Shown here in pieces: positions 1 to 60,792 of a DNA stretch of 64,000 bases. Under the pieces are notes generated by a model. That model made no database searches. It was not told the origin of the DNA and was given only the letters and a program-made list of their open reading frames with translations. The translations under genes were made by a program, and so were the position numbers. Each line of letters begins with the position of its first letter. Positions within the stretch are counted from its first letter, which is position 1. This DNA comes from Hymenobacter volaticus (GTDB lineage Bacteria; Bacteroidota; Bacteroidia; Cytophagales; Hymenobacteraceae): positions 1,341,501-1,405,500 of the forward strand of contig NZ_CP095061.1 of the NCBI RefSeq assembly GCF_022921055.1. Reading direction: 5' to 3'.

Positions 1-1089
1 TGCCTACCACGACAGGTTCGCCGAGCCTAGGAGTGGTGACGGGCATCTGCAACCGCATGGCCGCGGCGGTGGCCCGCTCGATGGGGTCGGTCCAAGCGTG
101 GTTAGCTTCGGTGAAAGCCGCCCAATGAACGGGTAGCATCACCTTTCCGCGTACGTCAACGGCGGCTTGCACGCTCTGCTCGGGCATCATATGGATTTGG
201 GACCATTGCTGGTCATATTGGCCGCATTCTATTAAGGCCAGATCAAAGGGACCGTGGGCGGCACCAATAGCCTTAAAGTGCGGGCTATACCCCCCGTCGC
301 CGCTATAGAAAACCCGCTTGGAATCCGATTTAAGCACCCACGAGCTCCATAGTGTGGAATTGCGGTTGGTGAGGCCGCGGCCCGAGAAGTGGCGGCTGGG
401 CGTGCACACCACCGTGAGGCCGGGCAGCTTGGCTTCGTCGCCCCAATTCATTTCGGTGATGCGCTCCGGCGCTACGCCCCACTTGCGCAGGTGCGGACCA
501 ATGCCCAAGGGCACGTAGAAGTGAGCGACTTTGCTTTTGATGCGCCGGATGGTTTGGTAGTCGAGGTGGTCGTAGTGGTCGTGCGAAATAAGCACGGCGT
601 CGATGGGCGGTAACTGCTCGGGCGTGATGGGCAGCGTGGCATTGTAGCGGGGAGGGGTTAGCCAGGCGCTGGGTCCAAGGTCAATGCTGAGCATGGGGTC
701 AAACAAGATGTTTTTGCCGGCCAATTCCACCAAGCTAGCCGAGTGGCCAAACCACGTCACGCGCAACAAGTCCGGCGATTTGCGCACGATGCTGAGCGAA
801 TCTAGTTGCTGCATGGGCAGCGGGCCCAGTGGGCGTGCGTTGGGTTCTTTGTGGAACAGAAACTTCCACAGCACCTTCACCATGCTGCCCCCGTCAGCTC
901 AACGGTCGGGACCAAGTTCACAAACTCGCCGTCCTGGTAGTGCCCCGACTTGGCGTATACCTGTTTGTCGGCCTTGGTGGGCTTGCCACCAAACTCGGGG
1001 CTGATGCTCATAAAAGCTACCGCAGCCACTAGTAAAACGCCAACCATGCTGCTCGTTGCCATGAAAAAGGTCTTTACTGGTTTCCTCAT
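1..1089 (-). CDS. MBL-fold metallo-hydrolase, UlaG/NAPE-PLD-like (partial, frameshifted)
   Basis: The gene runs off the left edge of the window. The N-terminus carries a membrane anchor or signal segment (about residues 8-28), followed by the segment SPEFGGK, which I recall from this membrane-linked branch of metallo-beta-lactamase-fold hydrolases. Further on, the reverse strand encodes LISHDHYDHLDY, which contains the HxHxDH zinc ligands, then a GDGGY-type segment and a conserved HW near the edge. The substrate is unknown; relatives act on phosphodiester or lactone-like bonds. The reading frame breaks at the C run 888-892: one extra base joins PTVELTG to SMVKVLWKFLFHKEPN. The start overlaps the stop of the upstream SDR gene by four bases (ATGA), so the two are co-translated. 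Confidence 0.8.
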
Positions 1090-1766
1090 GAACCCTTGGC
1101 CACTTTGCCGTGGGCTAGTGCCACCATATCGCGCACTTCCAATATCGATTTGGGGTAGCCTTCCTGCGTTGCCTTTATCATCGCCACGCCCACTTCGCTC
1201 ATGGTAGATACCAGGTTAGGGGTCAGTCTTCGCATAATCGGGTACAGCCAGCCTAAATATTTGTAGAGCTTCAGCACGTTGCGCTGGCCCGGCGTAGCCC
1301 GCATAAAACCCGGCCGGAACATATAGGCGTGCCGGAACGGAAGGCGCAGCAGCGCGTTTTCGGTGCGGCCTTTCACGCGGGCCCAATGCTGGGCGCTTTT
1401 CTCACGACTATCAGTACCCGCACCGGACACAAACACAAAGGTCATGTTCGGATTGAGGCGCACCAGCGTTTCGGCTACGTGCAGCGTGGCGTCGTAGGTG
1501 ATACGCTCGTACTCCGGCTTGCTTAGGCCTACCGACGAGACCCCCGCGCAATAAAAGCAGGCGTTGTAGCCCACAAGCTGGTCTTCAATACCCGCTAGGT
1601 TCTGGAAATCGGCATGCAGTACTTCCTTTACTTTTGGGTGCACGATGCCATTGGCGCGGCGGCCGAGCACCAAAATCTGTTCTACCTCGGGGTTGCGGAG
1701 GCATTCGAGTAGCACGCCTTCGCCTACCATACCAGTAGCGCCCGTTATAATAACTCGTAGTTTCAT
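1086..1766 (-). CDS. NAD(P)-binding SDR-type oxidoreductase (atypical, epimerase-like)
   Basis: This 226-residue protein begins with MKLRVIITGATGMVGEG, a Rossmann-fold TGxxGxxG nucleotide-binding motif. It continues with the pattern of small atypical short-chain dehydrogenases (YCAGVSSVGLS, FVFVSGAGTDS, ARVKGRTENALL). The canonical YxxxK is replaced by an RVKGRTE-type segment, as in other NAD(P)H-binding or epimerase-like proteins of this size. The true substrate cannot be told from sequence. It is the first gene of a two-gene unit with the metallo-hydrolase, overlapping it by four bases. Confidence 0.8.
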   Translation of the reverse strand: MKLRVIITGATGMVGEGVLLECLRNPEVEQILVLGRRANGIVHPKVKEVLHADFQNLAGIEDQLVGYNACFYCAGVSSVGLSKPEYERITYDATLHVAETLVRLNPNMTFVFVSGAGTDSREKSAQHWARVKGRTENALLRLPFRHAYMFRPGFMRATPGQRNVLKLYKYLGWLYPIMRRLTPNLVSTMSEVGVAMIKATQEGYPKSILEVRDMVALAHGKVAKGS

Positions 1767-2089
1767 AGAATGGCTGAGTGAGTCAGGAGTAAGGACGCAC
1801 TACGGCCGTTTCTACTTTAATTGCTTCGCGGATATTTGTAGTTGGCTTGGTTAATAACTGAATCATTATTTGCTCCACAGTCATGCTGAGCTTGACGAAG
1901 CATCTCGTGCGAATCGTTGAGTTAGTTTGGCAGCCTCAGCACGCGAGATGCTTCGGCTTCGTTGCACTGCGCTCAGCATGACGTTCTGGTGGATCGTGAT
2001 TATGTTGGTCAACCACATCTCGAAACCCGTCTTGTATGAGTAGAGCTAGCTTTTGAAGCTTTGATGACTATTCCCTCTTTCTAAAGGCA
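1767..2089. other. Intergenic gap with a palindromic repeat
   Basis: There is no coding sequence here. The gap separates the start of the SDR gene from the 3' end of the next leftward gene. Most of its centre is the dispersed inverted repeat at 1880-1982. Confidence 0.6.
1880..1982. repeat. Dispersed palindromic repeat, copy 1 (imperfect)
   Basis: The left arm starts GTCATGCTGAGC and contains CGAAGCATCTCG. The right arm contains CGAGATGCTTCG and ends GCTCAGCATGAC. The arms pair as an interrupted stem. The same outer and inner motifs recur at 18546-18642 and 47888-47986, and one arm is present near 37366-37393, so this is a family rather than a single hairpin. No coding capacity is seen. Confidence 0.85.
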
Positions 2090-4167: not shown

Positions 4168-4345
4168 AGACAGGAATAGCGAGTGAGAATACCAAGAACC
4201 CCAAAATAGGCCATAGAGTTGCGTGCAGCAATCGGGGCAGGAGCTAAGGTAGGAAGTTGCAAGGGAGAAGAAGGCAGAAAAATCAATAGCTTAGCCACTA
4301 TATTACTTAGGTAAGAGGCCGATCCTGCAACTATTCTCTGTTAGC

Positions 4346-5637
4346 ATGCAACACTGTTTAACTGCCGCGTTAGTAGCGTTTATATTAGGAACTGCAACCC
4401 TTATATCGAATTCAACTTACGCACAAGCTGCCCCGATTTGCTGGCTCCTGCTCGGCAGCACATGCTTCGCCAGGAGTATGCCGCAGCTAGCAGCACGTAT
4501 CAGCGGGTACTCAAGCAGCAAGCCGGCACAGCCCGCGACTACTACCAAGCTGCCCGTGCCGCCGCCCAAAACCAAGAAAGCAAGATTGCGCTAGAACTAC
4601 TAAGCCAAGCCGTAGACAAAGGTTATTATACTGCAGAAAGCTTGCGAGCTGAAGTTGATTTCGTGCCTTTGCGCACGCAACCTACTTGGAACCGCCTGCT
4701 AGCTCGTGCTCAGGCCAAGCAGAAACAGCACGAAGCCGGTTTCAATCAGCCACTAGTGGCACTATTAAAAAAGATATACCAGCAGGACCAGCAGTTTCGG
4801 ATAGCGGCCAGGGAGGCCGATAAGAAGTTTGGACTCGATTCGCCGCAAATGCGGGCCGCTATGCAGCAACAAGGAGTTGTAGATAGGCGCCTTATCCGGC
4901 AGATTGACAGTCTGATTGCCCGGCACGGGTATCCGGGCAAGTCGTTTGTGGGAGAGTATGAGAAGGATGTAGCATTCTTCGTGATTCAGCACAACCCGAA
5001 CGATAACTACTTGCCCCTGCTCACAGCCGCTGCCGACAAAGGCGAGTTTTCGAAGTCGGCCTTCGCTCTGTTTGACGACCGGACTAGAACGGAGCGCGGT
5101 GAAAAGCAGCTGTATGGCTCACAAACACATTGTTCAGCAGCTGGCAAGTGCCAATTGTACCCTATCGAGGACGAAGCTAACGTTGATGTGCGCCGAGCGA
5201 AACTTGGGATGATACCGCTTGAGGAATACCTTCAGCAATTCGGCATTACATACCAAGTATCCACCGCTACACACAACCCTAACCCGCCAGAAATCTACGT
5301 CGACCCAAGACAAGGAATAGAACAGAAACAAGCCGCGGAAGAGAAATCGGACGTGGAGTTGATTGGCGGCTATAAAGCACTGTATGCCAGTTTGCGTTAT
5401 CCTGCTGCCGCGCAAAAAAAGCAGGTTCGCGGCAGCGTAACCTTGCAGATGGTTATCGACAAAACAGGCATTCCGCAGGATGTGGCAGTGGTGAAAAGCC
5501 TCGGCTACAACTGCGACGAAGAAGCGTTGCGCGTGATGCGTACTGCCCGCTATACCAACTCTGCCGGGCAAGACCACGAAATTCGAGTCAATCTGCCGTT
5601 CCCGTACGAGCCGAAAGCGGCAAATTCAGAGAAGTAA
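4346..5637 (+). CDS. Secreted DUF6624 protein with TonB C-terminal domain (frameshifted)
   Basis: The product is 430 residues after restoring one base. It has a signal peptide ending near STYAQAA and a short helical TPR-like segment (YQRVLKQQ...). Next comes a DUF6624-like region: QDQQFR at the front, then FFVIQHNP, and a YGSQ...P segment. The last 90 residues are a TonB-type C-terminal domain (GGYKALYASLRYP ... RGSVTLQMVIDKTG ... EALRVMRTARY). The frame breaks at the C run 4431-4434; one more C gives AAPDLLAPARQHML, directly after the signal peptide. No transmembrane anchor or Pro-rich spacer is present, so it is not a canonical TonB. It ends two bases from the convergent YiiX-like gene. Confidence 0.8.
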
Positions 5638-5639
5638 GT

Positions 5640-6310
5640 TTACTGCACCTCTACCAACTCTTTGCTCTCGAACATGCGCACTGGCGAAATCACCTTTTCC
5701 GTTAGCGGAATGTGGTTGCCGTAGCGCTCCTTAAGCTTGGCTTGCACGGCGGGGTGGCTAAGGTCGAACTCGCGAAGGGTTTGCAGTTGACCGATTTCGC
5801 GGCCGGTGGCTTGTTGGTACATCTTCCAAAGCAGCTCCGAGCAATAGATTCGGTCGTCGGACCAGCCGAAATACAAGTCGTAGTTTTTGCCACGGTATTG
5901 CTCGCCGGCGGCCCGTAGGCGTTGCAGGGCGGCAGGAGTAAGAACGGTTTCGGCATCGCGCAGGCGCTTTACTACAAACTGGCCGCGTTGGCCCGCGCCG
6001 TCCAGGCTTGGAGGGAAGTTTCGCTTACCGGCTGTACTGCTTCGAATACGCGCCACGCGCCGTTGCGCTTAAACAAGATGCCGCAGTGGCTATAGGGCGA
6101 ATGAGTGGCGAGTTGGATGGCTTGGCTTTGGGCAGAAGTTGAGGTCTGAAAAATTAGGTCTCCGTCGTGAAGCTTAGAGGAGAGATGCGCTACAGCAGCT
6201 TCGGCGCGGCGGGCCTGCTGGAAACGGGTGAGGCGGCGTTGCAGACGCGGGTAGGCTAGTGCTGCTAAAGCCAGCAGCGGCAATAGGAACAGCAGAAACT
6301 TAAGCTTCAT
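5640..6310 (-). CDS. YiiX-type permuted papain-like cysteine hydrolase (frameshifted)
   Basis: The restored product has 223 residues with an N-terminal membrane or signal segment (LKFLLFLLPLLALAALAY). LHDGDLIFQ and THSPYSHCGILF are the usual first block of YiiX/NlpC-P60-like permuted papain-fold proteins. The second block, YDLYFGWSDDRIYCSELLWK, carries the catalytic Cys in the permuted order. Family members are thought to cleave amide or ester bonds at the envelope, but no substrate is established. The break lies at the run 5992-5994: adding one G on the coding strand gives AWTARGQRGQFVVKRL. The gene converges with the DUF6624/TonB gene with almost no spacer. Confidence 0.82.
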
Positions 6311-6392
6311 AGTTAGGCGTCAGCCCAAACAAGTAAGGCTGCTGGCTAAAGATAGAGCGTTTGCTACAGGCGTACCAAACGCTCCATCCAAC

Positions 6393-7568: not shown

Positions 7569-7982
7569 GAAAAGCTTGGCTGCGCTTCGAGTTGCGCGAC
7601 GGATAGGAGGTGAGCACCGGGTCTTTTCGACCGAAGCCTGACAACCCCACAGAATTTGTTCTTGTTCAAAAAAGGTAGCTTTCCGATGAAAGCTGCTGCA
7701 AAGGTACCCCGGCCCGACGTAGAAATATGTCTTTTCGGTGAGTATCCAATGGAAGTCGGCTATACCGCTAAATGTGTATCCGTCTTAAGCTGGACAGCGT
7801 ATAGAACATTTGCCGGTTGTTTTTATATTCAATCACTGAAAAGTGCGCTGTAGTACCCCCTGACAGAACTTGGCCGCGGGAGGGTCGTTGAAGTTGGCAT
7901 CCGATTTATTTGTCTAGGCTCTCCACCCACCTTTGTTGCCTGTAGGACATGCCCCTAATCGTTGATGAATGTTGTTTGTTGA
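7569..7982. other. Divergent intergenic region between MFS gene and sigma factor
   Basis: No credible gene is seen. It holds a small GGTC-TTTTC-GACC hairpin at 7620-7632 and a TACCTTTG -7-like box on the minus strand at 7699-7706. The plus-strand promoter of the sigma gene could not be located with confidence. Confidence 0.4.
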
Positions 7983-8603
7983 GTGGTCCCTTCCTATGGC
8001 ACGCGCGCCGCGGCTAAAGGTGAGGCTGCTCGTGCCCGCAGCGCGTGGGACGATCAAGCTCTGGTACGCGCCATGAGTGAGGGCGACGCGCGGGCCTTTG
8101 CCGAAGTGTACGAGCGATATTGGTATCAGTTGCTGGAAACGGCGTACCGCAAGCTCAATTCGCGGGAAGCTGCCGAAGAAGTGGTGCAAGACGTGTTTAC
8201 GGCGCTCTGGCACAAGCGCCAAACCAATTCCATTCAGCACCTTAAAAGCTACCTGTTCACGGCCGTCCGTTACCGCATCATCGATAGTATCAAGTTGCGC
8301 CTCTCGGAAACCGGCTACCTGCACTACAGCCGCACCCACCTCCCGGAGCCCGACCATAGCACCGAAGATACCATAGCCGCCCACGACTTAACGGGGGCTT
8401 TGGAAGCAAGCTTGACGCAACTGCCAGAACACACGCGGCAAGTGTTTCTGATGAGCCGGTTTGAGCACCAAACCGTGCCCGAAATAGCCGGCAACCTCCA
8501 CCTCTCCCGCAAAACCGTGGAGTACCACCTCACTCGCGCCCTGAAGCTGCTGCGCGTCAGTCTGCGCGATTTTATTGCCGTTCTGCTGATATACGTCTGG
8601 TAG
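7983..8603 (+). CDS. ECF RNA polymerase sigma factor, Bacteroidota PUL type
   Basis: The 206-residue protein has sigma region 2 (FAEVYERYWYQLLETAYRKL and the VVQDVFTALW helix) and region 4 (LPEHTRQVFLMSRF, then the helix-turn-helix TVPEIAGNLHLSRKTVEYH). This is the ECF group that pairs with FecR anti-sigma factors to control SusC/SusD loci. The start is uncertain: GTG 7983 follows an in-frame stop directly, while ATG 8071 (MSEGDARAF) would lose part of region 2's approach; a start between them is possible. The next gene is its likely FecR partner, but a terminator-like hairpin at 8817-8849 lies between them. Confidence 0.9.
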   Translation: MVPSYGTRAAAKGEAARARSAWDDQALVRAMSEGDARAFAEVYERYWYQLLETAYRKLNSREAAEEVVQDVFTALWHKRQTNSIQHLKSYLFTAVRYRIIDSIKLRLSETGYLHYSRTHLPEPDHSTEDTIAAHDLTGALEASLTQLPEHTRQVFLMSRFEHQTVPEIAGNLHLSRKTVEYHLTRALKLLRVSLRDFIAVLLIYVW

Positions 8604-8783: not shown

Positions 8784-8816
8784 CTAGTAAATCGACCACA
8801 GTCCAAAGTTTTTCGA

Positions 8817-8849
8817 AGCTCAACTGCTATCCGGTAGTTGGGCTTTTTT
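8817..8849 (+). terminator. Rho-independent terminator-like hairpin after the sigma gene
   Basis: AGCTCAACT (8817-8825) pairs with AGTTGGGCT (8836-8844) with one G-U pair, followed by six T residues ending at 8849. It lies about 210 bases beyond the sigma gene and 98 before fecR. Confidence 0.7.
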
Positions 8850-8946
8850 GCGAAATATTTTCACCGCAGGCTAGGGATAACGCACAGTTGGCCGACTATA
8901 GGGAGGAAGGCCCATTCTGTCATTTCAATAACCTATACGCTACTAT

Positions 8947-9971
8947 ATGGATCAGACAGATTTACGGGATATACTAGAACGATACCAGCAGGGAACATGC
9001 ACTGCGGAAGAAAAGCGCTTGGTGGAAAACTGGTATCAGGCACTAGGCAACGAGCGAGAGTTACAGTTGACGCCGGAAGAACAGGAAACCGTCCGGCTGA
9101 ACCTCTGGAATCGGATTGCGGAACAAACTATAGCTACCGAAGAAGATAACCCCGAAGACCGGTCGTGGCTGGGGCGCCCGCTGCGCGATGGGCCGCGGCA
9201 GCCCTACTGGCACTAGGCTTTGGGCTGGGAGCCCGACAATTCTGGACGGCTGCCAAACCGCAAGTAGTTGGCCCCACAACGGCGGCTGTGCAGTGGGTGG
9301 TGTATCCCAACACCAGTCAGCAGGTGGTTGGTATCACGTTGCCCGACAGCAGCCGGGTGCAGCTTTCACCGGGTAGCCGGTTGAAGTACCCGCGCACGTT
9401 TGGGACCAAGCAGCGGCCGGTGTATTTGGTGGGCAAAGCCTTTTTCAAGGTGCAGCGGGATACCACGCGTCCATTTCAAGTGTACACCGCCCAAATGCTA
9501 ACCACCGTGCTCGGAACTAGCTTCACGGTGCAAGCCTACCAAGGGCAAAAAAAGGCAGTAGTGGAAGTGAAAACCGGAAGGGTCCGCGTGAGTCCGCGTG
9601 TGGTAGCGAATGCATCTGCCAGCATCGCCCTGCCGGCCGCCATTGTGGTACTGCCCAACCAACAGGCGGTATACTCGCCTGAGCGCCAGCAACTACAGCG
9701 CGAATTGGTGGCTCAACCGGTACAGTTGAAGTCGCAATCGTTTGTGTTCGACGACCGGCCAGTGCCCGAAGTGCTGACGGCGCTCGAACAAGCTTACGGC
9801 GTGCACATCGTGTTCGACAGCAAGTCGTTGGCTAATTGCACCGTAACGTTGGCGCTGCGTAATAAGTCGCTGTACGGTAAGCTCGATGTGCTCTGCAAAA
9901 CGTTAGGCGCCTCCTATGAAGAAGTGAATGCACAAATCCTGTTTCACGGGCCCGGCTGCCAAGGTAGCTAG
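8947..9971 (+). CDS. FecR-family anti-sigma factor (frameshifted)
   Basis: The restored product is 341 residues. It has a cytoplasmic N-terminal sigma-binding part (LRDILERYQQGTCTAEEKRLVENWY), one membrane helix (WAAAALLALGFGLG), a periplasmic FecR domain (GVTLPDSS-like, LSPGSRLKYPRTF, RPVYLVGKAFFKV) and a C-terminal STN-like domain (FVFDDRPVPEVLTALEQAYG). It would hold the ECF sigma factor until the TonB receptor signals. The reading frame breaks at the C run 9150-9153; one more C yields NPRRPVVAGAPAARWAAAA, placing the helix correctly. Together with the upstream sigma gene and the downstream SusC gene, it forms a trans-envelope signalling set. Confidence 0.88.
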
Positions 9972-10124
9972 CTCGTTTGCCACACCATTCCTCGGACTTG
10001 CCTATGATGTAGATAGCCGCCCTGCCTGCCAACTTCTGCTAGTGCCGCCATTTCGGGTGGTGAGCGTTGCAGACCGCGAAAATTCTTGTCTCGGCATGAG
10101 ACCCCACTCAATTCCCACTTTCGC

Positions 10125-13100
10125 ATGATTCCCTTATTACCCCATTCCCCTTCCGGCCGCTTCCTACGGCGCGTGGTGTTCGCCCAAACGCTCGGCATCA
10201 CGTTGCTGAGTACCGTTAGTTTGGCTTCGCCGCACCCTTCCAAAGCGCAGGATTTCTTGGAGCAGCCTATTACGCTGCAAACCCGCAACCAGCCCATGTA
10301 CGCGGTTCTGAACAAGATTGAAAGCCAATCGGATGTGCGGTTTCAGTACAGCAAGCAGCTGATTGGCGCAAGTCGGCGCGTGTCGATAACGGCTACCGAC
10401 GAGCCACTGGCCGAGGTGCTGCACAAGCTGCTCGACCCGCTACACATCAAGTACGAGGCCGTAGAAGACGACATCATTCTCAAACCGCTGACTACCGCCG
10501 ACATCAACGTGACCGGCCGGGTGCTCGACGAAACCGGCTCGGGCTTGCCCGGTGTGAACGTGGTAGTGAAAGGCACTTCCAACGGCACCCAAACCGGCCC
10601 CGACGGCACTTTCACCCTCACCGCCCCCGACAATGCCACCCTGGTGTTTTCGTTTGTGGGCTACACCGCGCAAGAAGTGGCCGTGGGCGGCCGTACCACC
10701 GTCGATGTGACTATGGCGCCCGACACCAAGGCGCTCAGTGAGGTAGTGGTGGTAGGCTACGGCACGCAAAGCCGGCGCGACGTAACCGGGGCCGTTGCTC
10801 GCGTGGAAGGCGACGAAATTGTGAATCAGCCGGTGCAAACGCCCACACAGGCCTTGCAGGGCAAGATTGCCGGCGTGCAAATCACCACCAGCGGCGCGCC
10901 TAATTCTCAGCCCACGGTGCGCATCCGGGGTACGGGTACTTTGCTGGCCGGCGCCAATCCGCTTTATGTAGTGGACGGGGTGCAAACCACCGACATCCGC
11001 AACCTAAGCAACGCCGACATCGAAACCATCGACGTGCTGAAAGATGCTTCGGCGGCCGCTATTTACGGGGTGCGCGGGGCCAATGGCGTTATCATCATCA
11101 CCACCAAGAAAGGCAAGCTCGGCAAGCCGATCCTGAGCTACAGCGCCACCGGCGGCTTCAAGCAAGCCGCCCGCCTCGTGGACATGGCCGACGCCAACCA
11201 GTACGTGAACTACCTGCGCGACACGTCGCCGACCACGACCATTCCCGACTTCTCGGGCTCTACCGATTGGTACGACGAGATTTTGCGCCGCAGCACCTAC
11301 CAGAACCACAACCTGGCCGTATCCGGAGCTAGTGAGAACGTGCGGTATTACTTCTCGGGCAACTTGTTGCAGGACGATGGCATCGTCATCAACAACAAGT
11401 TTAAGCGCCTCACCGTCCGTTCCAACACGGCATTTGACTTGTCTGATAAAGTCACAATTAGTTCGCAGGCCTCGTTTAGCCACGCTGATGCGCGCGATGT
11501 GAACATCGCCACGGCTTACGGCAATGCCTACCGGGCGGCGCCCATCATCCCCTCGAAAGTGGGCAACTTGTACGGCAATACCTCGGCGTTCGGCAACGTG
11601 GGCAACCCGGTGCTCGATATCGAGCAGAACAACAACAAGCTGATCGAGAACCGCTTGCAAGGCAACGTGGGCATTGATGTGAAACCCGTAACGTGGTTGA
11701 CGTTTCGTTCGGCCATCAACGTGGACTTGAACGCGCTGAACCGCCGCGTGTACGACTACCAGTACCTCAACGACCAGAACACCTTCCTGACCACCGGCGG
11801 CAACCAGCGCAATCAGCGCAGCAACCTCACCATCACGAAAGAGGACCGGTACCGCTACTTGTGGGAAAACACGGCTACATTCCAAAAGACGTTCAACGAC
11901 CAGCACAACCTGACGGTGTTGGTTGGGCAGGTGGTGGAAGAAGGCCAGTTCACGCCTTTCTCGGCATCGCGCCGGGATGTGCCCGCCGACCCCAACCAGT
12001 GGTACCTCAACGCCGGGGACCCGAACACGGCCGTCAACGGCTTCGTCGATCCGCTCGACCCCGATCCGTTTTTGCCAGCTAAGGACCGTCGCATCTCGTT
12101 TTTGGGACGCGTCAACTATGCGTTCAAGGATCGGTACCTGTTTACGACCAACCTGCGCCGCGACGCAACGTCGAAGTTTAACCAGGACCGGCGTAATGGC
12201 TTTTTCCCTTCAGTCGGTTTAGGGTGGGTGGTTTCCGACGAGGCTTTTCTGCAAGACAACAGCGTGCTGAACTTCCTGAAGCTGCGCGCCAGCTTCGGCC
12301 AGCTCGGCAACGACCAGATTCCGGCTAACTCGTACGTTGTGACGGCCAATTCCAACATTCCGTACGTCATCAACGGGCAGCCGGTGCTTGGCGCGACCAT
12401 CACGCAGCTCAAGGACCGGGATGTGCGGTGGGAGACCACAACGGAGTACGATTTGGCCGTGGAATTTGGCTTGCTCGACAACCGCCTGACCGGTGAGTTG
12501 ACGTACTACGACAAGACCACTTCCGACGCGCTTATTCCGGTGACCATTCCGGGTATTCTCGGGGACCCCGACAACCAGTACATCACCAATGCTGCCGACA
12601 TCACCAACAAGGGCATTGAGGCGGGTTTGAACTGGCGTTCCAGCATTGGCGGCAGTGCCGACTGGAGCTACAACTTCGGGGCGAATGCCACCTTCAACAA
12701 AAACCGCATTGCCAACCTCAATGGCGGGCAGGCGCTGTTTGGCGGCACCAACCTCGTGACCCGCTCCGACAACGGCGTGGCGGCCGGTAGCTTCTATTTG
12801 CTCGAAGCCATTGGCGTGTATCAAACGGCCGACGAAATTGCTAATTCGCCTCGCTCTACCTTCGGTACGCCGCAGGTCGGCGACTTGAAGTACGCCGACA
12901 CCGACGGCAACAACGTGATTGACTTGCTGGACCGCCGCTACTTCGGCTCGTACCAGCCGCCGGTCTACTACGGCATCAATGGTGGGCTCAACTACCGCAA
13001 CGTGGACTTCTCGTTTGTGCTGTCGGGCAACCTCAACAACAAGGTCTACAACGCCAAGAAGCAGCTGCGCACCACCGGCACCGACAACGTGGAAGCCGAC

Positions 13101-13436
13101 TTCGCCAACGACCGGTGGACGGCCACCAACCCCTCCAACACCAACCCACGGTCCATTCCGAGCAGCCTGCCCAACTCCACGTACTTCCTGGAATCCGGCG
13201 ACTTTATGCGGCTAACCAACTTGGTAGTGGGCTACACGGTGCCCGGCACGGCGCTAGAGCGGTTCCGGTTGAGTTCGTTGCGGGTGTTTGCCTCGGCCCA
13301 AAACCTGTTCACCATCACCAACTACAGCGGCTTCACGCCGGAGCTGGCGGGTGGTCCGCTCGATTCGGGTATCGAAGCCACTTCCTATCCCATTAGCCGC
13401 GTGATTACGCTCGGGCTGAATGTCAACTTCAAATAA
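10125..13436 (+). CDS. SusC/RagA-type TonB-dependent outer-membrane receptor with STN domain
   Basis: The product is 1103 residues from the ATG at 10125, which opens a signal peptide (FAQTLGITLLSTVSLAS, cleavage near SKAQ). Next come an STN signalling domain (residues about 45-115), a carboxypeptidase-D-like beta-sandwich (VTGRVLDETGSGLPGVNV, about 125-200), a TonB-box-like EVVVVGYGTQ, the plug (RIRGTGTLL, NPLYVVDGVQ) and the beta-barrel to the C-terminal NVNFK. It imports oligosaccharides through the outer membrane with the SusD partner. The STN domain is what contacts FecR, so this receptor probably also senses the substrate. An in-frame TTG at 10086 lies upstream but gives an unlikely signal sequence. 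Confidence 0.95.
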   Translation: MIPLLPHSPSGRFLRRVVFAQTLGITLLSTVSLASPHPSKAQDFLEQPITLQTRNQPMYAVLNKIESQSDVRFQYSKQLIGASRRVSITATDEPLAEVLHKLLDPLHIKYEAVEDDIILKPLTTADINVTGRVLDETGSGLPGVNVVVKGTSNGTQTGPDGTFTLTAPDNATLVFSFVGYTAQEVAVGGRTTVDVTMAPDTKALSEVVVVGYGTQSRRDVTGAVARVEGDEIVNQPVQTPTQALQGKIAGVQITTSGAPNSQPTVRIRGTGTLLAGANPLYVVDGVQTTDIRNLSNADIETIDVLKDASAAAIYGVRGANGVIIITTKKGKLGKPILSYSATGGFKQAARLVDMADANQYVNYLRDTSPTTTIPDFSGSTDWYDEILRRSTYQNHNLAVSGASENVRYYFSGNLLQDDGIVINNKFKRLTVRSNTAFDLSDKVTISSQASFSHADARDVNIATAYGNAYRAAPIIPSKVGNLYGNTSAFGNVGNPVLDIEQNNNKLIENRLQGNVGIDVKPVTWLTFRSAINVDLNALNRRVYDYQYLNDQNTFLTTGGNQRNQRSNLTITKEDRYRYLWENTATFQKTFNDQHNLTVLVGQVVEEGQFTPFSASRRDVPADPNQWYLNAGDPNTAVNGFVDPLDPDPFLPAKDRRISFLGRVNYAFKDRYLFTTNLRRDATSKFNQDRRNGFFPSVGLGWVVSDEAFLQDNSVLNFLKLRASFGQLGNDQIPANSYVVTANSNIPYVINGQPVLGATITQLKDRDVRWETTTEYDLAVEFGLLDNRLTGELTYYDKTTSDALIPVTIPGILGDPDNQYITNAADITNKGIEAGLNWRSSIGGSADWSYNFGANATFNKNRIANLNGGQALFGGTNLVTRSDNGVAAGSFYLLEAIGVYQTADEIANSPRSTFGTPQVGDLKYADTDGNNVIDLLDRRYFGSYQPPVYYGINGGLNYRNVDFSFVLSGNLNNKVYNAKKQLRTTGTDNVEADFANDRWTATNPSNTNPRSIPSSLPNSTYFLESGDFMRLTNLVVGYTVPGTALERFRLSSLRVFASAQNLFTITNYSGFTPELAGGPLDSGIEATSYPISRVITLGLNVNFK

Positions 13437-13445
13437 GCTACGCCG

Positions 13446-15004
13446 ATGTCTTTCCAACTTCCCACTTCTTTCTCGCGCCGTACCGGCACGGCGGCTTTAG
13501 CACTCACTTTGGCGCTGGTTAGCAGCTGCAACGACTACCTCGATGTGGCGCCGCAGGGGCAACTCAGTGAAGATGCCATTCGGACCGACCCCGCCGCCGC
13601 TCAAAAGCTGGTAGACGGCGTGTACAACGTGCTGTATCTCGGCGGTTTCGGCCCCGATGTGCACAGCTTCCAGTTCATCATCCTGACCGATATTGCCTCC
13701 GACGACACCGACAAAGGCAGTACCCCCAACGACTTTGCCGACGCCGCTGCCGTCGACAACTTCACGCTGACTTCCACCAACAGCGTTATCAACAACGTTT
13801 GGAACGGGCACTTCCAGGCCATATCGCGTGCCAACCAAGCCCTCGACAAGATTCCGCTGAGTCCCGCCCGGAGGCCACCAAAAATCAGTTGCTCGGAGAA
13901 GTACGCTTTTTGCGCGCTTACTTCTACTTCAATTTGGTGCGGCTTTACGGGGGCGTACCGTTGCTCGACCGGGTGCCGGCTACTTCGGAAATCAACAACC
14001 CGGAGTTTCAGCGCCGGGCCACTGCCGAAGAGATATATCAGTTCATTGTGAGTGACTTGCAATTTGCAGCGGATAATCTAGCGCCTAAATCAACCGCTCA
14101 AACGGGTCGGACCACCAAAGCCGCCGCTCAGGCCATGTTGGCTAAGGTGTACCTGTATCAGAAAAACTACCAGCAGGCCTACGCCCTGACCAACGAGATT
14201 ATCCAGGGCCGCTCGGGAGCCTACGCGCTGTACCCAAACTACGCCGACGTGTGGCGCACGCCGGGCGCCAACAGCTCGGAATCCATCTTCGAGATACAGA
14301 CGGGCGTTAACGCCGCCTGCAACAACTCGGCGGTCAGCATTTACACCGTGTGCCAGGGCCCGCGCTCCGGTGGCCGCGGCGGGTGGGCCGATTTGGGCTT
14401 TGGCTTCAACACGCCCACGCAAGACTTGGCTAATGCCTACGAACCCAACGACGTGCGCCGGGCCGGCTCCATTATCTTTATCAATCCTACTGCTCCGGCT
14501 GGTCAGCGTTCCACGGGCACGGTGCTTTGGGACGGATTCCGCATCCCGAGCAAGGACTCGGTGGAAGGCTTGCGCTACAGCTACAAAGCCTACCACAGCC
14601 GCACCCGTGAAGCCAACTGCGGCAACAACGACTACCTGCCCAAGAACGTCCGAATCCTGCGCTACGCCGATGTGCTGCTCATCAACGCCGAAGCGGCTTT
14701 GCAAATCGGCAACACCGGAGCTGCTGCTACTAGCCTGAACCTCGTGCGCACCCGCGCCGGCCTGCCAAGTATCGCAACCCCCACGCTCGCGCAAATCTGG
14801 CGGGAGCGTCGTGTAGAACTGGCCCTGGAACAGGACCGGTTCTTTGACCTGGTGCGTCAGGAAAGCGTGCAGCCCGGCCGCATCGTTCCCATTTTCGCGG
14901 CCCAAGGCAAGACCTTCACGAAAGGCAAAAACGAAATCTACCCCATCCCGCAAGCCCAAATTGACCTCAGCGGCGGACAACTCACGCAGAACCCCGGATA
15001 CTAA
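13446..15004 (+). CDS. SusD/RagB-type glycan-binding lipoprotein (frameshifted)
   Basis: After restoring one base the product is 519 residues. The lipobox is LALVSSC followed by NDYLDVAPQGQ, the common start of mature SusD proteins. The SusD N-terminal domain (LVDGVYNVLY, ISRANQALDKIP) and C-terminal RagB domain (FLRAYFYFNLVRLYGGVPLL, YLPKNVRILRYADVLLINAEA, RRVELALEQDRFFDLVR, GKNEIYPIP) are complete. The frame breaks around 13863-13865; one more C gives LSPRPEATKNQLLGE. It starts nine bases after the SusC stop, so the two are one unit and act together at the cell surface. Confidence 0.93.
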
Positions 15005-15016
15005 GCGGCGAGGGGC

Positions 15017-15167
15017 ACCTCGTCCCCTAGCCTCCTCTCCTCGGGGAGAGGGGGAACTAGCTTTTTAGCTCTAAAAATTTAACTGCCAACATTCCCCTAA
15101 AACTAGAGCTGGCTAAACTAGCAGTTAGTTCCCCCTCTCCCGAGGAGAGGGGGCTAGGGGTGAGGTC
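15017..15167. repeat. Long inverted repeat of the CTCTCC-CGGG-GAGAGG type
   Basis: A left arm at about 15017-15062 and a right arm at about 15123-15167 are near-perfect inverted copies with a few mismatches. Each arm also contains its own short palindrome, CCTCTCC-tcgg-GGAGAGG, and ends in a CTAG-rich edge. About 60 AT-rich bases lie between the arms. It sits between susD and the GH144 gene and looks like an inserted non-coding palindromic element; it could fold in mRNA and lower read-through into the enzyme genes. Confidence 0.8.
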
Positions 15168-15178
15168 AACCGGATGCT

Positions 15179-16537: not shown

Positions 16538-16700
16538 CTCTCTCAGGAACGCTTCTGAAATAATAAATAGCGAAAGACCGTCCTATCCGGCATCCGCTTG
16601 TCGAAGCGTCGCGCCGGGGTGATAATCGTTACTCCCGCGTCAGCATGCCAAGTGTTTCAGCTCCGCTCAGGGTGCGTCCTTTTAATTAGCCGTTCAATTT

Positions 16701-18458: not shown

Positions 18459-18822
18459 GAGGACATATGTTTCACCTGATAAATTTCAGCTACAGTGTCC
18501 ATTCTGCTTGATTTTGCATACTCTCGTCACTAGCACAATCAGAACGTCCTGCTGAGCGGAGTCGAAGCATCTCGCGTGGTGTCGTTGAAGTGCTAACTGT
18601 TTTACCACACGAGCGAGATGCTTCGACTCCGCTCAGCAGGACAATACCACTATAACGACAGCACGTCAGGGTGTTCGGCTGCATTGCACTGCGTTCAGCA
18701 GGACAGTATGAATCTGACGTCAGTAGCGAGATACTTCCATCACGCAGATGCCAGATAGAGCACAACTATCTACTTTCGCATTCACTCACTCTATCATCCT
18801 ACTCACACCCTTTCATTCCCAC
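18459..18822. other. Gap before the GH3 gene, filled by palindromic repeats
   Basis: No gene is seen between the GH43-like stop and the GH3 start. Most of the gap is the repeat at 18546-18642 plus a decayed second arm at about 18673-18706. Confidence 0.55.
18546..18642. repeat. Dispersed palindromic repeat, copy 2
   Basis: The left arm starts GTCCTGCTGAGCGGAGTCGA and the right arm ends TCGACTCCGCTCAGCAGGAC. The inner GAAGCATCTCGCG pairs with the right-arm CGAGATGCTTCG. This copy has CAGGAC where copies 1 and 3 have CATGAC, and a further one-sided fragment with GTTCAGCAGGAC follows at about 18690-18706. Confidence 0.85.
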
Positions 18823-23483: not shown

Positions 23484-24193
23484 CTATTGCTCGACGTAGC
23501 GTCGTAGGCTTCGCTCAGCTTTAGGGTTTAACTGAGCGGCTTTTTCCAGGTCGGCCTTGGCTTCGGCAGTTTTGTTGAGGGAGGCGTAGCAAATCCCACG
23601 ATACTCGTAAGCATCAGCGTAAGTGGAATCGAGACGGATGGCTTCCGAAAAATCAGGAACGGCGGCCCTGAAGTTGAGAGTTTGCATGCGGGCAACCCCG
23701 CGGCCGAATAAGGCCTCCTTGTACTGCGGATTGTACTGAAGAGCTTTCGTTAAATCGGTTATAGCCGCTGGGTACTGTTTCATCTTGAGGCGGTTGAGGC
23801 CCCGCTGATACAAGGCACTCGCATGGGTAGGTGCCAAGCGTAGCGCCGTGTTGCAGTCGGCAATAGCCGCATCATAGTCTTTGAGTTGGCTTTTTGCTTT
23901 CGCCCGTACGAGCAGCACCTGAACATCACCAGGCGTACTGGCCAATAAGGCATTGGCCTCCTCTAGCATCGCCCGATAGTCGTTCGAAGACCTCGGCACC
24001 TCAACTGCTGTTTCTGCTGCCGAAGCTGTAGCAGCATTCGGGCCGCAGAACTTACTAGTAAAGGCTCCGCTTTTTCGAAGCGAATTGCCCGTTGTGAAGT
24101 AGTCGCCTGACTTTGCACCTCCACCGAAGCACATTGCGTGAAAAACAATGTGCTGCCAGCAACAGAAAGGAAAACAAGCAGGCGGCGAAACAT
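23484..24193 (-). CDS. TPR-repeat lipoprotein (frameshifted)
   Basis: The restored product is 236 residues. The start MFRRLLVFLSVAGSTLFFTQC carries a lipobox-like Cys, so it is probably a lipoprotein. At least four tetratricopeptide repeats follow (DYDAAIADCNTALRLAPTHASAL, QYPAAITDLTKALQYNPQYK, NFRAAVPDFSEAIRLDSTYA and NKTAEAKADLEKAAQLNPKA). TPR arrays act as protein-docking surfaces. The frame breaks at the run 24040-24042: one extra base joins SSAAPNAATASAAETAVEV. It converges with the flavoprotein gene with 13 bases between stops. Confidence 0.8.
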
Positions 24194-24737
24194 AAAGCAA
24201 GTGGACGAAGCGAGTACAGTGAAAAGAAGCACAGAAAATCCGAGGTAACCAACAAGTAGCCAATTTTATATACTGGCAAACAACCCCAACCTCGTATTTA
24301 AGAAACTGTACTTTCTCTGAAAAGGATGCGCTCAGAGTCCTCATTTTACCTATTCCCTGCCTCAAGAGCAAGAAAAATAACACCAAGTTCATTCGGCGTA
24401 ATAAGTATAGTTCTCTCGAACCTACTTGTTTAGTAGAGCTGCAAGAGCATTACGTGGCGCATTCTTCCGTGAACTGTTCACTCATCAGCCTTCCACCACG
24501 ACTATTGCAACGATGAATTGCCCTTCTGTATAGCTCGTAAGGTACCTGCTTACTGGTTCTTGTAGTGTAATTCGCTTTGGGAATTAAAGGCTAGAGCAAG
24601 CATCAAGTAGTATAAGAACTGATGCCTGGTTCTAGCTGTTGGGTAGATGCGTCGTCTGCCTATCTTTGCCCACCCCGTTGGCGTGGCAGTCAGCCCGACG
24701 CGGGATTTTCCCTTTTCACCTTCAACCTGAAAACACT
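24194..24737. other. Gap between the TPR gene and lpdA
   Basis: No gene is supported. The right end holds a good Bacteroidota promoter for lpdA at 24639-24668. The remainder is unassigned. Confidence 0.5.
24639..24668 (+). promoter_or_regulatory. Bacteroidota sigma-type promoter of lpdA
   Basis: TTG at 24639-24641 and TATCTTTG at 24661-24668 are separated by exactly 19 bases, matching the TTG-N(17-20)-TAnnTTTG consensus of Bacteroidota housekeeping promoters. The predicted start of RNA is near 24675, about 60 bases before the ATG of lpdA. Confidence 0.7.
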
Positions 24738-30879: not shown

Positions 30880-31018
30880 CGGTTGGTAAAGGTGAAATGG
30901 GGCATTTACAGCCGTAAAATGCCAGAATATGGGTCCACTAGCTTGTCTTCCGTTTGGAAGGGCAGAATGCTAAAGGTTTTTTAACATGGAGCCGGCAAAG
31001 TTTCCAAAAAAAAACATC

Positions 31019-37906: not shown

Positions 37907-40900
37907 ATGGAAAAACCCAACAAAGTTCTTGTCCTCGGTTCCGGTGCGCTTAAGATAGGTGAAGCCGGAGAGTTTGATTATTCCGGCTCTCAGGCGCTCA
38001 AGGCGCTCAAGGAAGAAGGCATTCGTACCATCCTCATCAACCCCAACATTGCCACCGTACAAACGTCGGACAACATTGCCGACGATGTGTATTTCCTGCC
38101 CGTGACGCCCTTCTTTGTAGAGGAAGTCATCAAGAAAGAGCAGCCCGACGGCATTTTGGTGGCATTCGGTGGCCAAACGGCTTTGAACTGCGCCGTGGCT
38201 TTGTTCCGGGATGGCATATTCGAGAAGTATGGGGTGAAGGTGCTGGGCACGCCGGTGCAATCCATCATTGACACCGAAGACAGGGATATTTTCAAGGACA
38301 AGCTCGACCAAATTGGGGTTTTCACGGCCCGCAGCGTGGCCGTGACGACGATGGAAGACGCCCTGGCAGCCGGTGAGAAAATCGGCTTCCCCATTATCGT
38401 ACGGGCGGCGTTTGCGCTGGGCGGCCTAGGCAGCGGTTTTGCCAACAACATGGACGAGCTACGGGCCCTGGCTCAAAAATCCTTCACCACCTCCGACCAG
38501 ATTCTGGTGGAAGAATCGTTGAAGGGCTGGAAAGAAGTGGAGTATGAAGTGGTGCGTGACCAGTATGATAACTGCATCACGGTCTGCAACATGGAGAACT
38601 TCGACCCTATTGGTATTCACACCGGGGAAAGCATTGTGGTGGCGCCTTCGCAGACGTTGAGCAACCGCGAGTACCACAAACTGCGCAGCATCGGCATTAA
38701 AACCATTCGCCACTTAGGAATTGTGGGTGAATGCAACATTCAGTATGCCCTGGACCCGGTTTCCGAGGACTACCGCGTAATTGAAGTGAATGCGCGTCTT
38801 TCTCGCTCTTCGGCGCTGGCTTCCAAGGCAACCGGTTATCCGCTGGCGTTTGTGGCGGCCAAACTGAGCTTGGGCTATTCGCTGTCGGAGTTGAAAAACA
38901 GCGTGACGCAGACCACAACGGCGTTTTTCGAGCCGGCCCTTGATTACGTGGTGGTGAAGCTGCCGCGCTGGGACTTAGGCAAGTTCGAGGGCGTAAACCG
39001 GCAGATTGGTAGCGCCATGAAGAGCGTGGGCGAAGTGATGGCCATTGGCAAATCCTTCGAGGAAGCTATTCAGAAAGGCTTGCGCATGCTGGATACTGGC
39101 AAGCGCGGCTTCGTGGCCAACCGCCCCGAAACGGTAAACAAAACCACGATTGATAAACTGCTGAATGAGCCCAACGAGGAGCGCATTTTTGCTATCAACC
39201 ATGCATTCGAGGCGGGCTACACGCTCGACCAAGTGCATGAACTAACCCGCATCGACCACTGGTTTTTGCAGCGCCTATACACCATCTTCCAACTTGGCAA
39301 CCAGCTTGCTTCCTTGCGCAGCTCCGGCCTCAATGCTTTGGAAACGACGCTACTGCGGGACGCTAAAAAAGCCGGCTTCTCGGATCAACAAATTGCTGTG
39401 AAATTGATTGGTGAAGGCGACGTGAAAGCCGACGAGCTACTGGTGCGCGCCCGCCGCAAGGCGCTGGGCGTGTTGCCGGTTATCAAGCAAATTGATACGC
39501 TAGCAGCCGAGTTTCCGGCCAAAACCAACTACCTCTACAGCACCTACCACGGCACCGAAAACGACTTGGCGCCCGAAACCGACAAGTCGGTGATGGTGCT
39601 GGGGTCGGGTGTGTACCGTATTGGCAGCTCCGTGGAATTCGACTGGTGCGGCGTGAATGCGGTGCAAACGGCGGCCGAAGAAGGCTACAAGACCATCATT
39701 CTCAATTACAACCCGGAAACCGTTTCCACGGATTACGACGTCAGCGACCGGCTGTACTTCGAGGAGTTGAGCTTCGAGCGAGTGATGGATATTCTGGAAT
39801 TCGAGCAGCCGCAGGGCCTCATTCTCTCCACCGGCGGGCAGATTCCTAACAACCTCGCCACTCGTTTGCAGGAAGCTGAGGCACCTATTCTAGGTACTTC
39901 ACCGGCGCGCATCGACGAGGCTGAAAACCGCCACAAGTTCTCCAGCATCATGGACGAACTAGGCATTGCGCAGCCGCGCTGGAAAGAGTTGACCTCCATG
40001 GACGCCATGTTCGAGTTCGTGAAGGAAGTGGGCTACCCCGTGCTGATCCGACCATCGTATGTACTGTCGGGGGCGGCTATGAATGTGGTTTCCAATGCTT
40101 TCGAGATGGAATCATACCTCAAAGCGGCTACGGAAGTGAGTGCCGAGTATCCGGTGGTGGTATCGGAGTTCATGCAGGAAGCCAAGGAAATTGAGCTGGA
40201 CGCGGTGGCTGCCAAAGGCGAAATCGTGAGCTACGCCATTTCCGAGCACGTCGAATTTGCTGGCGTACACTCCGGCGACGCTACCATGTACTACCCGCCA
40301 CAGAAGGTGTACGTGCGCACTATTCGTAAGCTGAAAATCATTGCCGAGAAGATAGCTAAGCGCTACGAAATCAGTGGTCCGTTCAACATTCAATTCCTAG
40401 AGAAAGACGGCGAAATTCGGGTGATTGAGTGCAACATCCGAGCTTCCCGTAGTTTCCCGTTTGTGTCGAAAGTGTCGGGCAACAACCTGATTAAGAAGGC
40501 CACGAAAGTGCTGCTCGGCTTGAAGGTGGAGCGCGACGAAAGTGAGCGAGTGTACGATCTGCCTTTCGTCGGTGTAAAAGCCCCGCAGTTCTCGTTTACG
40601 CGTCTTCCCGGCGCCGACCCCGTACTGCGCGTTGACATGGTATCGACGGGGAAGTGGGCTGCTTGGGCGATACGGCCGAGGAGGCGTTGCTGAAGTCGAT
40701 GCTGAGCGTGGGCTACAAGATTCCGCAGAAAACGGTGCTGATTTCCGGCGGGCCTATCAAGTCGAAAGTAGCGATGCTGTCGGCCGTAGAACTGCTGGTG
40801 AAGCGAGGCTACATCATTTATGCCACGCAAGGCACGCACCGTTTCTTCGCTGAAAACAACGTGCCTAGCAGCCTACTGTTCTGGCCCGATGACCACATAG

Positions 40901-41136
40901 AGCCCAACGTGCTAACCTACTTGAAAGAAAAGAAAATCGACTTGGTCATCAACATTCCCAAAAACCTGTCGAAAGGCGAGCTTGACAACGACTACAAAAT
41001 CCGCCGTACGGCCATTGACTTCGGCATCCCGCTACTGACCAATGCCCGCTTGGCTAAGTCATTTATCCAGGCTTTCTGCACGCTGAAACTGGAGGATTTG
41101 AAAATCAAGAGTTGGAACGAGTACAAGGCAATGTAG
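37907..41136 (+). CDS. carB: Carbamoyl-phosphate synthase large subunit (frameshifted)
   Basis: With one base restored the product is 1076 residues, the normal CarB length. It has two ATP-grasp halves, each with its own front ([22 protein letters not shown] and [21 protein letters not shown]), and a C-terminal allosteric MGS-like domain ([17 protein letters not shown] ... [14 protein letters not shown]). It forms carbamoyl phosphate from ammonia, bicarbonate and two ATP. The frame breaks at the G run 40648-40651; one G more gives [20 protein letters not shown]. An inactive carB would cost arginine and pyrimidine synthesis, so a sequence error is more likely than decay. Confidence 0.94.
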
Positions 41137-41860: not shown

Positions 41861-41861
41861 C

Positions 41862-44506: not shown

Positions 44507-45843
44507 ATGTCCACCGGCTCTCTCTTCGACTCCGAACCTACCCCTGCTTCCAACCTGCGCCCCAAAGCCGCCGATACGGCCCCGCTAGCCGAGCGCCGTC
44601 GGCCCCGCACGCTCGATGAGTACGCCGGGCAGCAACACCTTATTGGTCCGGAAGGAGTATTGCGCCGCTACCTGAACGCTGGCCGCCTGCCGAGTTTGAT
44701 TCTGTGGGACCACCGGGCGTTGGCAAAACTACGTTGGCGCACTTACTGGCCGAAGAGCTACACAAGCCGTTTGTGGCGTTGAGTGCCATCAATGCGGGCG
44801 TGAAAGACGTGCGGGACGTAATCGACCGGGCTAAAAAGCAGCGCGGTACCATCTTGTTTATCGATGAGATTCACCGCTTCAGCAAGAGCCAGCAAGATGC
44901 GCTGCTCGGGGCCGTAGAGCAGGGCATCGTCACGTTGATTGGTGCGACCACCGAAAACCCTTCGTTTGAGGTAATTCCGGCCGTGCTGAGCCGGGCGCAG
45001 GTGTATGTGCTCGAACCGCTCAACAAAGAAGTGCTGACCGACCTCGTCGATAAGGCCCTCGCCGAAGACGAGCAACTCAAGCAGAAAAACGTGCGCATAG
45101 CTGAATACGGCGCCCTGCTTACCATCTCCGGCGGCGACGCCCGTAAGCTGCTCAACCTGCTCGAAATAGTGGTGGAGTCCAGCCGGCCCGATCCTATAAC
45201 CGGCGAAATCAGCATCACCGACGAGGTAGTGCAGCAACTCGCGCAGCAGCACCTAGCGCGCTACGACAAAGGCGGCGAAATGCATTACGATGTTATTTCG
45301 GCCTTTATTAAGAGCATCCGCGGCTCCGACCCTAATGCCGCGCTGTATTACCTGGCCGTGATGCTAGAAGGGGGCGAGGACCCGAAGTTTATAGCTCGGC
45401 GCTTACTCATTCTGGCTTCCGAAGACGTGGGTATGGCCAACCCCAACGCCCTGATGCTAGCCAACAGCTGTTTCCAGGCCGTCACGGTAATTGGCATGCC
45501 CGAAGGGGACATTATCTTGGGGCAAACGGTGGTCTACCTAGCCACTTCGCCCAAGAGCAATGCCAGCTACAAAGCTATTCGGGAGGCGCGGGCGCTGGTG
45601 CGGCAGCAGGGCGTGCAGCCAGTTCCGATTCCGCTACGCAATGCGCCTACCAAGCTCATGAAAGACCTCGGCTACGGCGGCCAGTACCAATATTCGCACG
45701 ACTATCCCGGCAACTTCGCCTTTCAGGAGTTCATGCCCGAGCAACTTAGCGGCACCACTTTCTACCATCCCGGCCACAACTCCGCCGAAACGAAAATTCA
45801 GGACCGCCTGCGCCAGTTGTGGGGCGAGAAGTACGGGTATTAG
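44507..45843 (+). CDS. rarA: Replication-associated recombination ATPase RarA/MgsA (frameshifted)
   Basis: The restored product is 445 residues. It begins with the typical APLAERRRPRTLDEYAGQQHL and has Walker A GPPGVGKTT, Walker B ILFIDEIHRF and sensor ATTENPSF. The C-terminus holds LKEIR-like and ECLPEQL-type parts (RVEFMPEQLSG, YHPGHNSAET) of the tetramerisation region. RarA acts at stalled forks. The frame breaks at the G run 44706-44708: one G more gives LILWGPPGVGKTTLA, restoring the P-loop exactly. Confidence 0.92.
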
Positions 45844-47986: not shown

Positions 47987-48014
47987 GCTTATCTATTCCA
48001 ACAACCATCCCTTC

Positions 48015-48832
48015 ATGCAGCACCTGCACCAAGCCGCCGATTACCTCCGCCAACGCCTTCATGATTTCACGCCTGAGTTTGGCATCATCCTCGGTACCGG
48101 CCTCGGGGCTTTGGTCAAGGACCTGACCATTCATCACACATTTCCTTATGCCGAGATTCCCAACTTCCCGGTTTCGACGGTGGAAAGCCACTCCGGCAAC
48201 CTGCTAGCGGCTGAGTTGGCCGGCCGGAAAGTGCTGGTAATGCAGGGCCGCTTTCATTACTACGAAGGCTACAGCATGGAGCAAGTGGTGTTGCCGGTAC
48301 GCGTAATGAAGCTGTTGGGTATCCAGAAACTGTTTGTAAGCAACGCTGCCGGCGGCCTGCACCCTGACATGGAGTACTCGGATTTGATGCTGCTCGAAGA
48401 CCACATCAACCTGCAACCCACCAACCCGCTAGTTGGCAAAAACCTCGATGAGCTAGGCCCTCGCTTCCCCGACATGCTGGAGCCCTACGATACCACGCTG
48501 CTGCAACAAGCTGAGGAAGCCGCCCGCACCCTCGGCTTTGCCGATAAAGTACGGCGGGGCGTGTACGCCAGCTTGCCCGGCCCATGCTCGAAACGCCCGC
48601 CGAGTACCGCTATCTGCGCACCATTGGCGCCGACGCCGTAGGCATGAGTACGGTACCCGAAGTTATTGCTGCGGTGCACATGGGCTTGCCCGTACTGGCT
48701 GTTTCCGTCATCACCGATTTATGCTCACCTGGTAAGCTTAAGCGCGTGGCCATAGCCGACATCCTGCGCGTAGCCGCCGACGCCGAGCCTCGCCTCACGG
48801 CGTTGCTACGCGCTGTGATTGAGATGCAATAG
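48015..48832 (+). CDS. Purine nucleoside phosphorylase, trimeric type (frameshifted)
   Basis: The restored product is 272 residues from the ATG at 48015. It has the phosphate-binding [12 protein letters not shown], the [13 protein letters not shown] segment, [15 protein letters not shown] and [36 protein letters not shown] and VITDL bind the purine. It splits inosine or guanosine with phosphate. The frame breaks at 48581-48583: one C more gives [15 protein letters not shown]. The in-frame ATG at 47982 lies inside the palindromic repeat and was rejected. Confidence 0.93.
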
Positions 48833-52844: not shown

Positions 52845-52867
52845 AGTTGCTGCGTATGGTTGCTGCA

Positions 52868-54992: not shown

Positions 54993-55014
54993 AGACGCAC
55001 CGAACTGTTGCGTA

Positions 55015-59803: not shown

Positions 59804-59844
59804 GCCTGTGCTAAGCTGAAGTATCGATGCTGTTATGGTTAAAG

Positions 59845-59930
59845 AGTAGAAGCTAGAGAACTCGTTCTCTTCCTAGCTGCTAGATGCGCTACATCAGGCG
59901 AAGAGGCGAACGAACTCTCTAGCTTCTACT
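59845..59930. repeat. Inverted repeat between PhyH-like and GH43 genes
   Basis: AGTAGAAGCTAGAGA (59845-59859) pairs with TCTCTAGCTTCTACT (59916-59930), and inner GTTC and GAAC bases extend the pairing. It could terminate the dioxygenase transcript or be an inserted palindromic element. Confidence 0.65.
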
Positions 59931-59947
59931 TTCTTGGTCTACAGAGC

Positions 59948-60792
59948 CTACGCTTCACCCATCATCAATCCTTCAATAGTATGCCCCTGCTCGATAATCT
60001 CTAACTCGTCGACTATTCGGCAAGTAAGATGCTGCTTGAGGCTTTCGGGTAGGGTTTCGTAGAAGGTTCTCGTGATTTGCAAGTCGTGGCGCTCGGCGTT
60101 GTTGGCAGTCGGCGCATCTACCCCGAGTACCAGCGCAGGGCGGGACTTATCGGAGTGATTAGCCGTGCCGCGGTGGATGGTCAGGGCCGAACGGGCCGAA
60201 ATGTCGCCCATCTGGGGCATTTTGCGCTGAGCGCGTTGCTGGTAGCGGGGGCTGTTGGATTTGGGCGGAAACATACCGTGCTCGAAGTCGATGGGCAGGT
60301 CCCATTGCGTACCGGGGGCTACTTCGAAAGGCCCCATATTCTCGGTTACATCGACGGTGGTGAGGTTAAAGGCCAGCGAGTTGAGCCGGCGGCCGATGAT
60401 GGTATCGTCGGGGCGGGAAAGTCGCGGTGCCAGGGCTGGTTGACGGCCCCGGGATTGGGCACATCGAAGCCGATTTCAACAATTTTGTAGTCGGGCCCAA
60501 GCACAGCCTCACACACGGCCGTTACCCATGGGTGTGTAGCGAGTTCCACGAAACCGCGAATATCTTCGGGGTGAATCTCGACGTAGTGCCGCTTGGGGCC
60601 ACGGCCAAGGGCGCCACCAGGGCGCTTAAGGGCAGCTTCGTACAGCACGGCAATGTCTTCGCCGAGTTGCTGCGCCCATTCGCGACTGAAGGCTCCTTTC
60701 AGGCCAATGATACCGTCGCCGTAGAGCCCGCCCATGATTTGCGCGACGTCGTAGGTGGTTTGGGTAGGGTTTTTTAGCTGCGCTGTTTCCAT
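59948..60792 (-). CDS. Phytanoyl-CoA dioxygenase-like protein (frameshifted)
   Basis: The restored product is 281 residues. The Fe(II) motif is HRD in NQPWHRDFP, and the partner His may lie in the LTIHRGTANHSDKSRPAL segment, which also has the Arg for 2-oxoglutarate. These are hallmarks of PhyH-type non-heme dioxygenases. The substrate is unknown. The frame breaks at 60415-60417: one base more gives FPRPDDTIIGRRLNSLAFN. A good promoter (60816-60845) precedes it. Confidence 0.87.

Follow-up and report, generated by a model that had tools for sequence, protein, structure and literature searches.

Frame breaks in short G/C runs of a Hymenobacter volaticus assembly point to a long-read artefact

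The genes that appear broken in this stretch of the Hymenobacter volaticus genome are, with a probability of about 0.96, the product of consensus deletion errors in a long-read assembly that would have under-counted G/C homopolymers by one base. The window, by which we mean the whole stretch of 64,000 nucleotides that was analysed (G000:C1:1341501-1405500), seems to hold only a part of this feature, which, judging from the letters and from the proteins of relatives, is almost certainly an assembly artefact reaching far beyond it. At each affected site the assembled sequence would be one letter short, so that gene callers would see half-genes, and the cell's own genes would be intact.

The assembly (G000) comprises 7.13 Mb with a completeness of 97.3, and its GC content is slightly lower than that of its relatives. 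It lies on 10 contigs, one of them of 5.3 Mb, which suggests that it was built from long reads. By RarA, the nearest of the 61 genomes of the genus searched, G000 included, is G071 (98%), in which most of the window has a syntenic counterpart with a DNA identity of 84-92%. Hymenobacter translucens, with 87% over RarA, is the best match found among named relatives. The breaks in the window were tested with the proteins of five relatives, namely G071, G053, G023, G007 and G009.

Broken genes in the window

The eleven breaks listed in the preliminary description are all present in the letters, and a twelfth, in a sigma factor gene, had been missed (Table 1). The description held that each break separates two conserved halves offset by one base, and called for a comparison with the proteins of close relatives. 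With the G071 proteins this picture was recovered at ten of the eleven breaks, where a homologue encoded in a single frame in G071 is matched in the window by abutting halves in two frames, the window being one base short modulo 3. The proteins of relatives likewise match carB, rarA, FecR and SusD, which had been named among the broken genes, in two frames of the window. Most of the positions given also stand, although the FecR change lies about 20 bases away from the reported 9150-9153, the SusD change had been set slightly too early, at 13863-13865, and the break given as 60415 can be placed anywhere in a stretch of several tens of bases.

Table 1. Genes with a frame change in the window (window positions; lengths in amino acids are those of the G071 homologues)
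Gene or product	Position	Strand	Frame change	Remarks
Metallo-hydrolase-like gene, 377 aa	2..1089	-	within about 841-892	cut by window edge; NF001911 match below cut-off
Unassigned protein, 692 aa	2093..4167	-	within about 2779-2785	no NCBIfam match; G007 homologue also in one frame
DUF6624/TonB_C protein	4295..5637	+	near 4426-4434	weaker support than other breaks
YiiX-family permuted papain-like enzyme	5640..6310	-	near 5993	Peptidase_C92 match split in two at profile position 64-65
ECF sigma-70 factor	7927..8603	+	near 8037	TIGR02985 in G071 homologue; absent from the preliminary list
FecR-like protein	8941..9971	+	within about 9174-9183	
SusD/RagB protein	13446..15004	+	within about 13868-13883	one-frame homologues in G071, G053, G023 and G009
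TPR-repeat protein	23484..24259	-	near 24041	
carB, carbamoyl-phosphate synthase large chain	37907..41136	+	within about 40642-40654	only copy found
rarA, MgsA/RarA AAA+ ATPase	44507..45843	+	within about 44706-44728	
Purine-nucleoside phosphorylase	48012..48832	+	within about 48557-48599	
Unassigned protein, 281 aa	59948..60792	-	within about 60361-60417	no NCBIfam match

The break at 4431 appears less certain than the other ten reported. No counterpart of its gene was found in the syntenic stretch of G071; a signal-peptide-like start lies in one frame and the mature DUF6624/TonB_C part in another, and three of the five homologues examined (L172-L174) match from the junction onwards, at 4426-4432. 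One G007 protein suggested a further break, the thirteenth, near 53.9 kb; this candidate was rejected, the same two separate ORFs being found in G071, G053 and G023. Splits near 30990, 37489, 45974 and 47903, each seen with one relative, were attributed to short ORFs or shadow ORFs of 87, 153, 102 and 79 aa and left uncounted.

A side observation concerns window positions 8815-18567, where about 9.8 kb carrying FecR, SusC and SusD genes are 95% identical to G053, other matches to this genome along the window being at about 73-90%. The G000 and G053 lineages may have exchanged this module recently.

One-way offsets at G/C runs beyond the window

In a wider comparison, 504 kb of G000 were set against 480 kb of G071 in both directions, a region about eight times the size of the window in which about 281 coding kb of G000 were comparable. 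Among 248 G071 proteins matched there, 36 show a total of 37 frame splits. Two paralogous queries share one of the positions, which leaves 36 distinct sites, spread over 35 G000 genes. All of these sites, located in the stretch of C1 from 1.30 to 1.63 Mb, are one base short modulo 3 in G000 (sign test, 3e-11, for one pair of genomes). When, conversely, 269 G000 ORFs were matched to G071, 12 splits came out, each of them in this sense and none in the opposite one. The identical type and direction claimed for the breaks of the window thus hold at every site over the comparable coding sequence. The rate is roughly one break per 8 coding kb and, with a coding share assumed to be 0.87, extrapolates to about 800 breaks in the whole assembly.

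The idea that the window holds a decay cluster of its own was rejected, because the same type of break is found outside at about half the density. The window holds 11 sites in 51.6 coding kb (the break at 4431 uncounted) vs 25 in 229.2 kb outside, a difference of borderline significance (Poisson, 0.03; Fisher, 0.08), and is not clearly special in this respect.

The missing bases are associated with G/C runs. The longest homopolymer lying no more than six bases from the gap is a G/C run of at least 3 at 32 of the 36 sites, where its residual length is 3 (11 sites), 4 (13), 5 (7) or 8 (1). Among the remaining four, one shows CC, one shows GGGG next to a T run that is longer, and two are aligned ambiguously in the vicinity of A/T runs. 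Placement of the gap is ambiguous at six of the 36 sites, the local alignment containing more than one gap. When grouped by the inferred true length of the G/C run, the shortened fraction rises from 1% for runs of 4 (11/1095) to 7% for runs of 5 (13/185) and 33% for runs of 6 (7/21). The same coding sequence contains 1271 G/C runs of 4 or more and 1932 A/T runs of this length, and no unambiguous loss was found at the latter; the difference in loss is significant even with two A/T losses granted (Fisher, 4e-11).

A census of runs of 6 or more, made independently of genes, counted 54 G/C vs 461 A/T runs in 859 kb of G000, whereas five relatives, over 800 kb, have 98 vs 416 (Fisher, 1e-4). The contiguous 504 kb show this shortage of long G/C runs clearly, scattered stretches of C1 show it less strongly, and 80 kb taken from C2, C3, C4 and C8 do not show it. 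Few long G/C runs were also counted in the single relatives G023 and G007 (80 kb each).

Several of the affected genes belong to the bacterial core. In G000, ftsA, mreB and carB are split, and a second or intact copy of them was looked for and not found; these genes are in one frame in the four (ftsA), five (mreB) and seven (carB) relatives searched. For the only copy of mreB found (G000:C1:632224-633206), the match falls into two pieces that differ in frame, and the break in ftsA leaves a run of eight G. Homologues of the succinate dehydrogenase flavoprotein and of DNA polymerase IV are also split, as is the gene of a LolD-like ABC ATPase that scores below its NCBIfam cut-off. Neither rpoB nor dnaE is broken, an outcome that the break rate allows for but that gives no support to an error. 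Partial SusC-family loci, found on C1, C2, C3, C7 and C8, hint that the breaks are genome-wide: 16 of the 49 loci scored (out of 143 candidates) are partial in G000, one of them at a contig end and not all of them necessarily frameshifted, vs 0/49 in G071 and 3/49, low-scoring, in G053.

A similar test was applied to stretches of 80-100 kb each of seven other Hymenobacter assemblies. G010 (C1:260001-360000, L182-L186) is one base short at 14 of 14 sites, of which two are 12 bases apart and may be a single one and six are supported by one reference protein each; a five-base G or C run adjoins the junction at 8 or 9 of the 14. In G005 (C1:990001-1090000, L177-L181), three of four breaks are one base short, in only 17.7 coding kb. 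These two assemblies have 5 and 4 contigs and completeness values of 93 and 94, respectively, as would be expected of long-read assemblies with limited accuracy. The G005 homologue of the window gene at 61201-63498 was also seen in two overlapping pieces. G046, G066, G053, G023 and G007 gave 1, 4, 3, 2 and 0 sites; three of these ten are one base short and seven one base long, each from a single reference protein. The signature is thus absent from most of the relatives examined, and it is not limited to the window.

Explanations of the missing bases

Mismatch-repair defects raise homopolymer indels, and a recent wave of slippage deletions at G/C runs in a repair-deficient (hypermutator) strain would have left the genes truly broken. 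A very recent loss of this kind would be compatible with dN/dS values that have changed little. However, none of the 36 sites lies in the opposite direction, no unambiguous loss was seen at the 1932 A/T runs, as opposed to the 1271 G/C runs, and the strain would have lost ftsA, mreB and carB at once and, by extrapolation, have suffered some 800 breaks besides. We regard this alternative as very improbable.

Ordinary pseudogene decay under relaxed selection, which would account for gene halves out of frame, has even less in its favour. The median dN/dS is slightly higher in the 36 broken genes than in the 198 intact ones (0.056 vs 0.045), as it is among genes of 150 aa or more (0.059 in 35 broken vs 0.044 in 175 intact), a difference that is not significant (P 0.15). 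Pooled pN is 0.050 before the break and 0.033 after it, contrary to what decay would leave behind; purifying selection on the broken genes is not significantly relaxed, and it is not weaker after the break. A decay spectrum of mixed insertions, deletions and stops was sought in the G000-G071 matches and not found, the offsets being one-directional. There are four in-frame stops in the G000 matches (three in ORFs of 143 aa or less and one in the start extension of a longer ORF) vs a raw count of seven in the G071 matches.

Programmed or slippage-rescued frameshifting, by which the runs would be read through and full proteins made, is as remote as decay, for although the breaks lie on homopolymers and that of ftsA leaves eight G, the relatives encode these proteins in single open frames with no conserved slip-site or two-frame layout, the genes are functionally unrelated and the residual runs are mostly of 3-5.

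Phase variation at homopolymer tracts usually involves long tracts, changes in both directions and few surface genes. The losses in G000 resemble it in that a one-base change in a homopolymer switches the frame, but they differ in affecting short runs, in one direction only and in housekeeping genes. Long tracts varying both ways were looked for among the 32 G/C sites; 31 of them have a residual length of 3-5 and one of 8.

The preliminary description had read the breaks as indel errors of the assembly, and this reading is supported by the one-way offsets at G/C runs, the split single-copy core genes, the lack of a significant relaxation of selection and the small number of stops. Deletion by error can be strongly inferred from these sequence comparisons, which display what is known of long-read errors: homopolymer offsets in one direction, a rate that rises with run length and a spread that is blind to function, core genes included. 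The missing bases were probably lost in the reads or in their consensus.

It is doubtful whether, besides run length, the errors carry a footprint of base modification or of a context misread by the platform that could be read from the assembly alone. With runs oriented as C, a G follows the affected run at 20 of 24 sites of residual length 3 or 4, against a background of 0.43 for C-runs in G071 (P 9e-5), and at 23 of 32 sites when all residual lengths are taken (P 0.001), the sites having been chosen by the longest-run rule. A scan of G000 stretches, window included, for depleted k-mers that would reveal a miscalled motif gave no clear error motif and none with a C-run followed by G. Its top matches, such as CCCAG, were rejected as error motifs, as they look like differences in codon usage or between species. 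CCCAG/CTGGG words occur in G000 at about half of the number expected from relatives, and CTAGC is more common, perhaps owing to codon preference or motif avoidance.

Known counterparts and consequences

Studies of other bacteria describe similar errors. In three strains of Propionibacterium freudenreichii with PacBio RSII, Illumina and Nanopore data, 3, 5 and 8 differences separate the assemblies, and each of them lies in a G/C homopolymer of 4-10 bp that is one base shorter in the PacBio-derived assemblies (PMC11649196). In another study, 2900 errors were counted in one long-read assembly, and most of the indels were false deletions that split genes; in the Pss508 assembly, deletions were about twice as frequent after A/T runs as after G/C runs (PMC12007338). 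The losses in G000 resemble both cases in being, in all likelihood, false single-base deletions in homopolymers. Unlike those of Pss508, which are biased to A/T, they fall at G/C runs, and this restriction leans towards a PacBio-like platform. Such a platform is no more than a candidate, because the rate in G000 greatly exceeds the 3-8 differences of PMC11649196 and homopolymer deletions are also named for Nanopore in the introduction of that paper.

By extrapolation, some 800 breaks would be present in G000, whose completeness is nevertheless scored at 97%. A cheap warning for such assemblies that does not need reads can be obtained by combining the direction of the frame offsets relative to a single related genome with a count of G/C vs A/T runs. 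Studies of gene loss, pan-genomes and pseudogenes that include G000, and probably also G010, would count many false losses.
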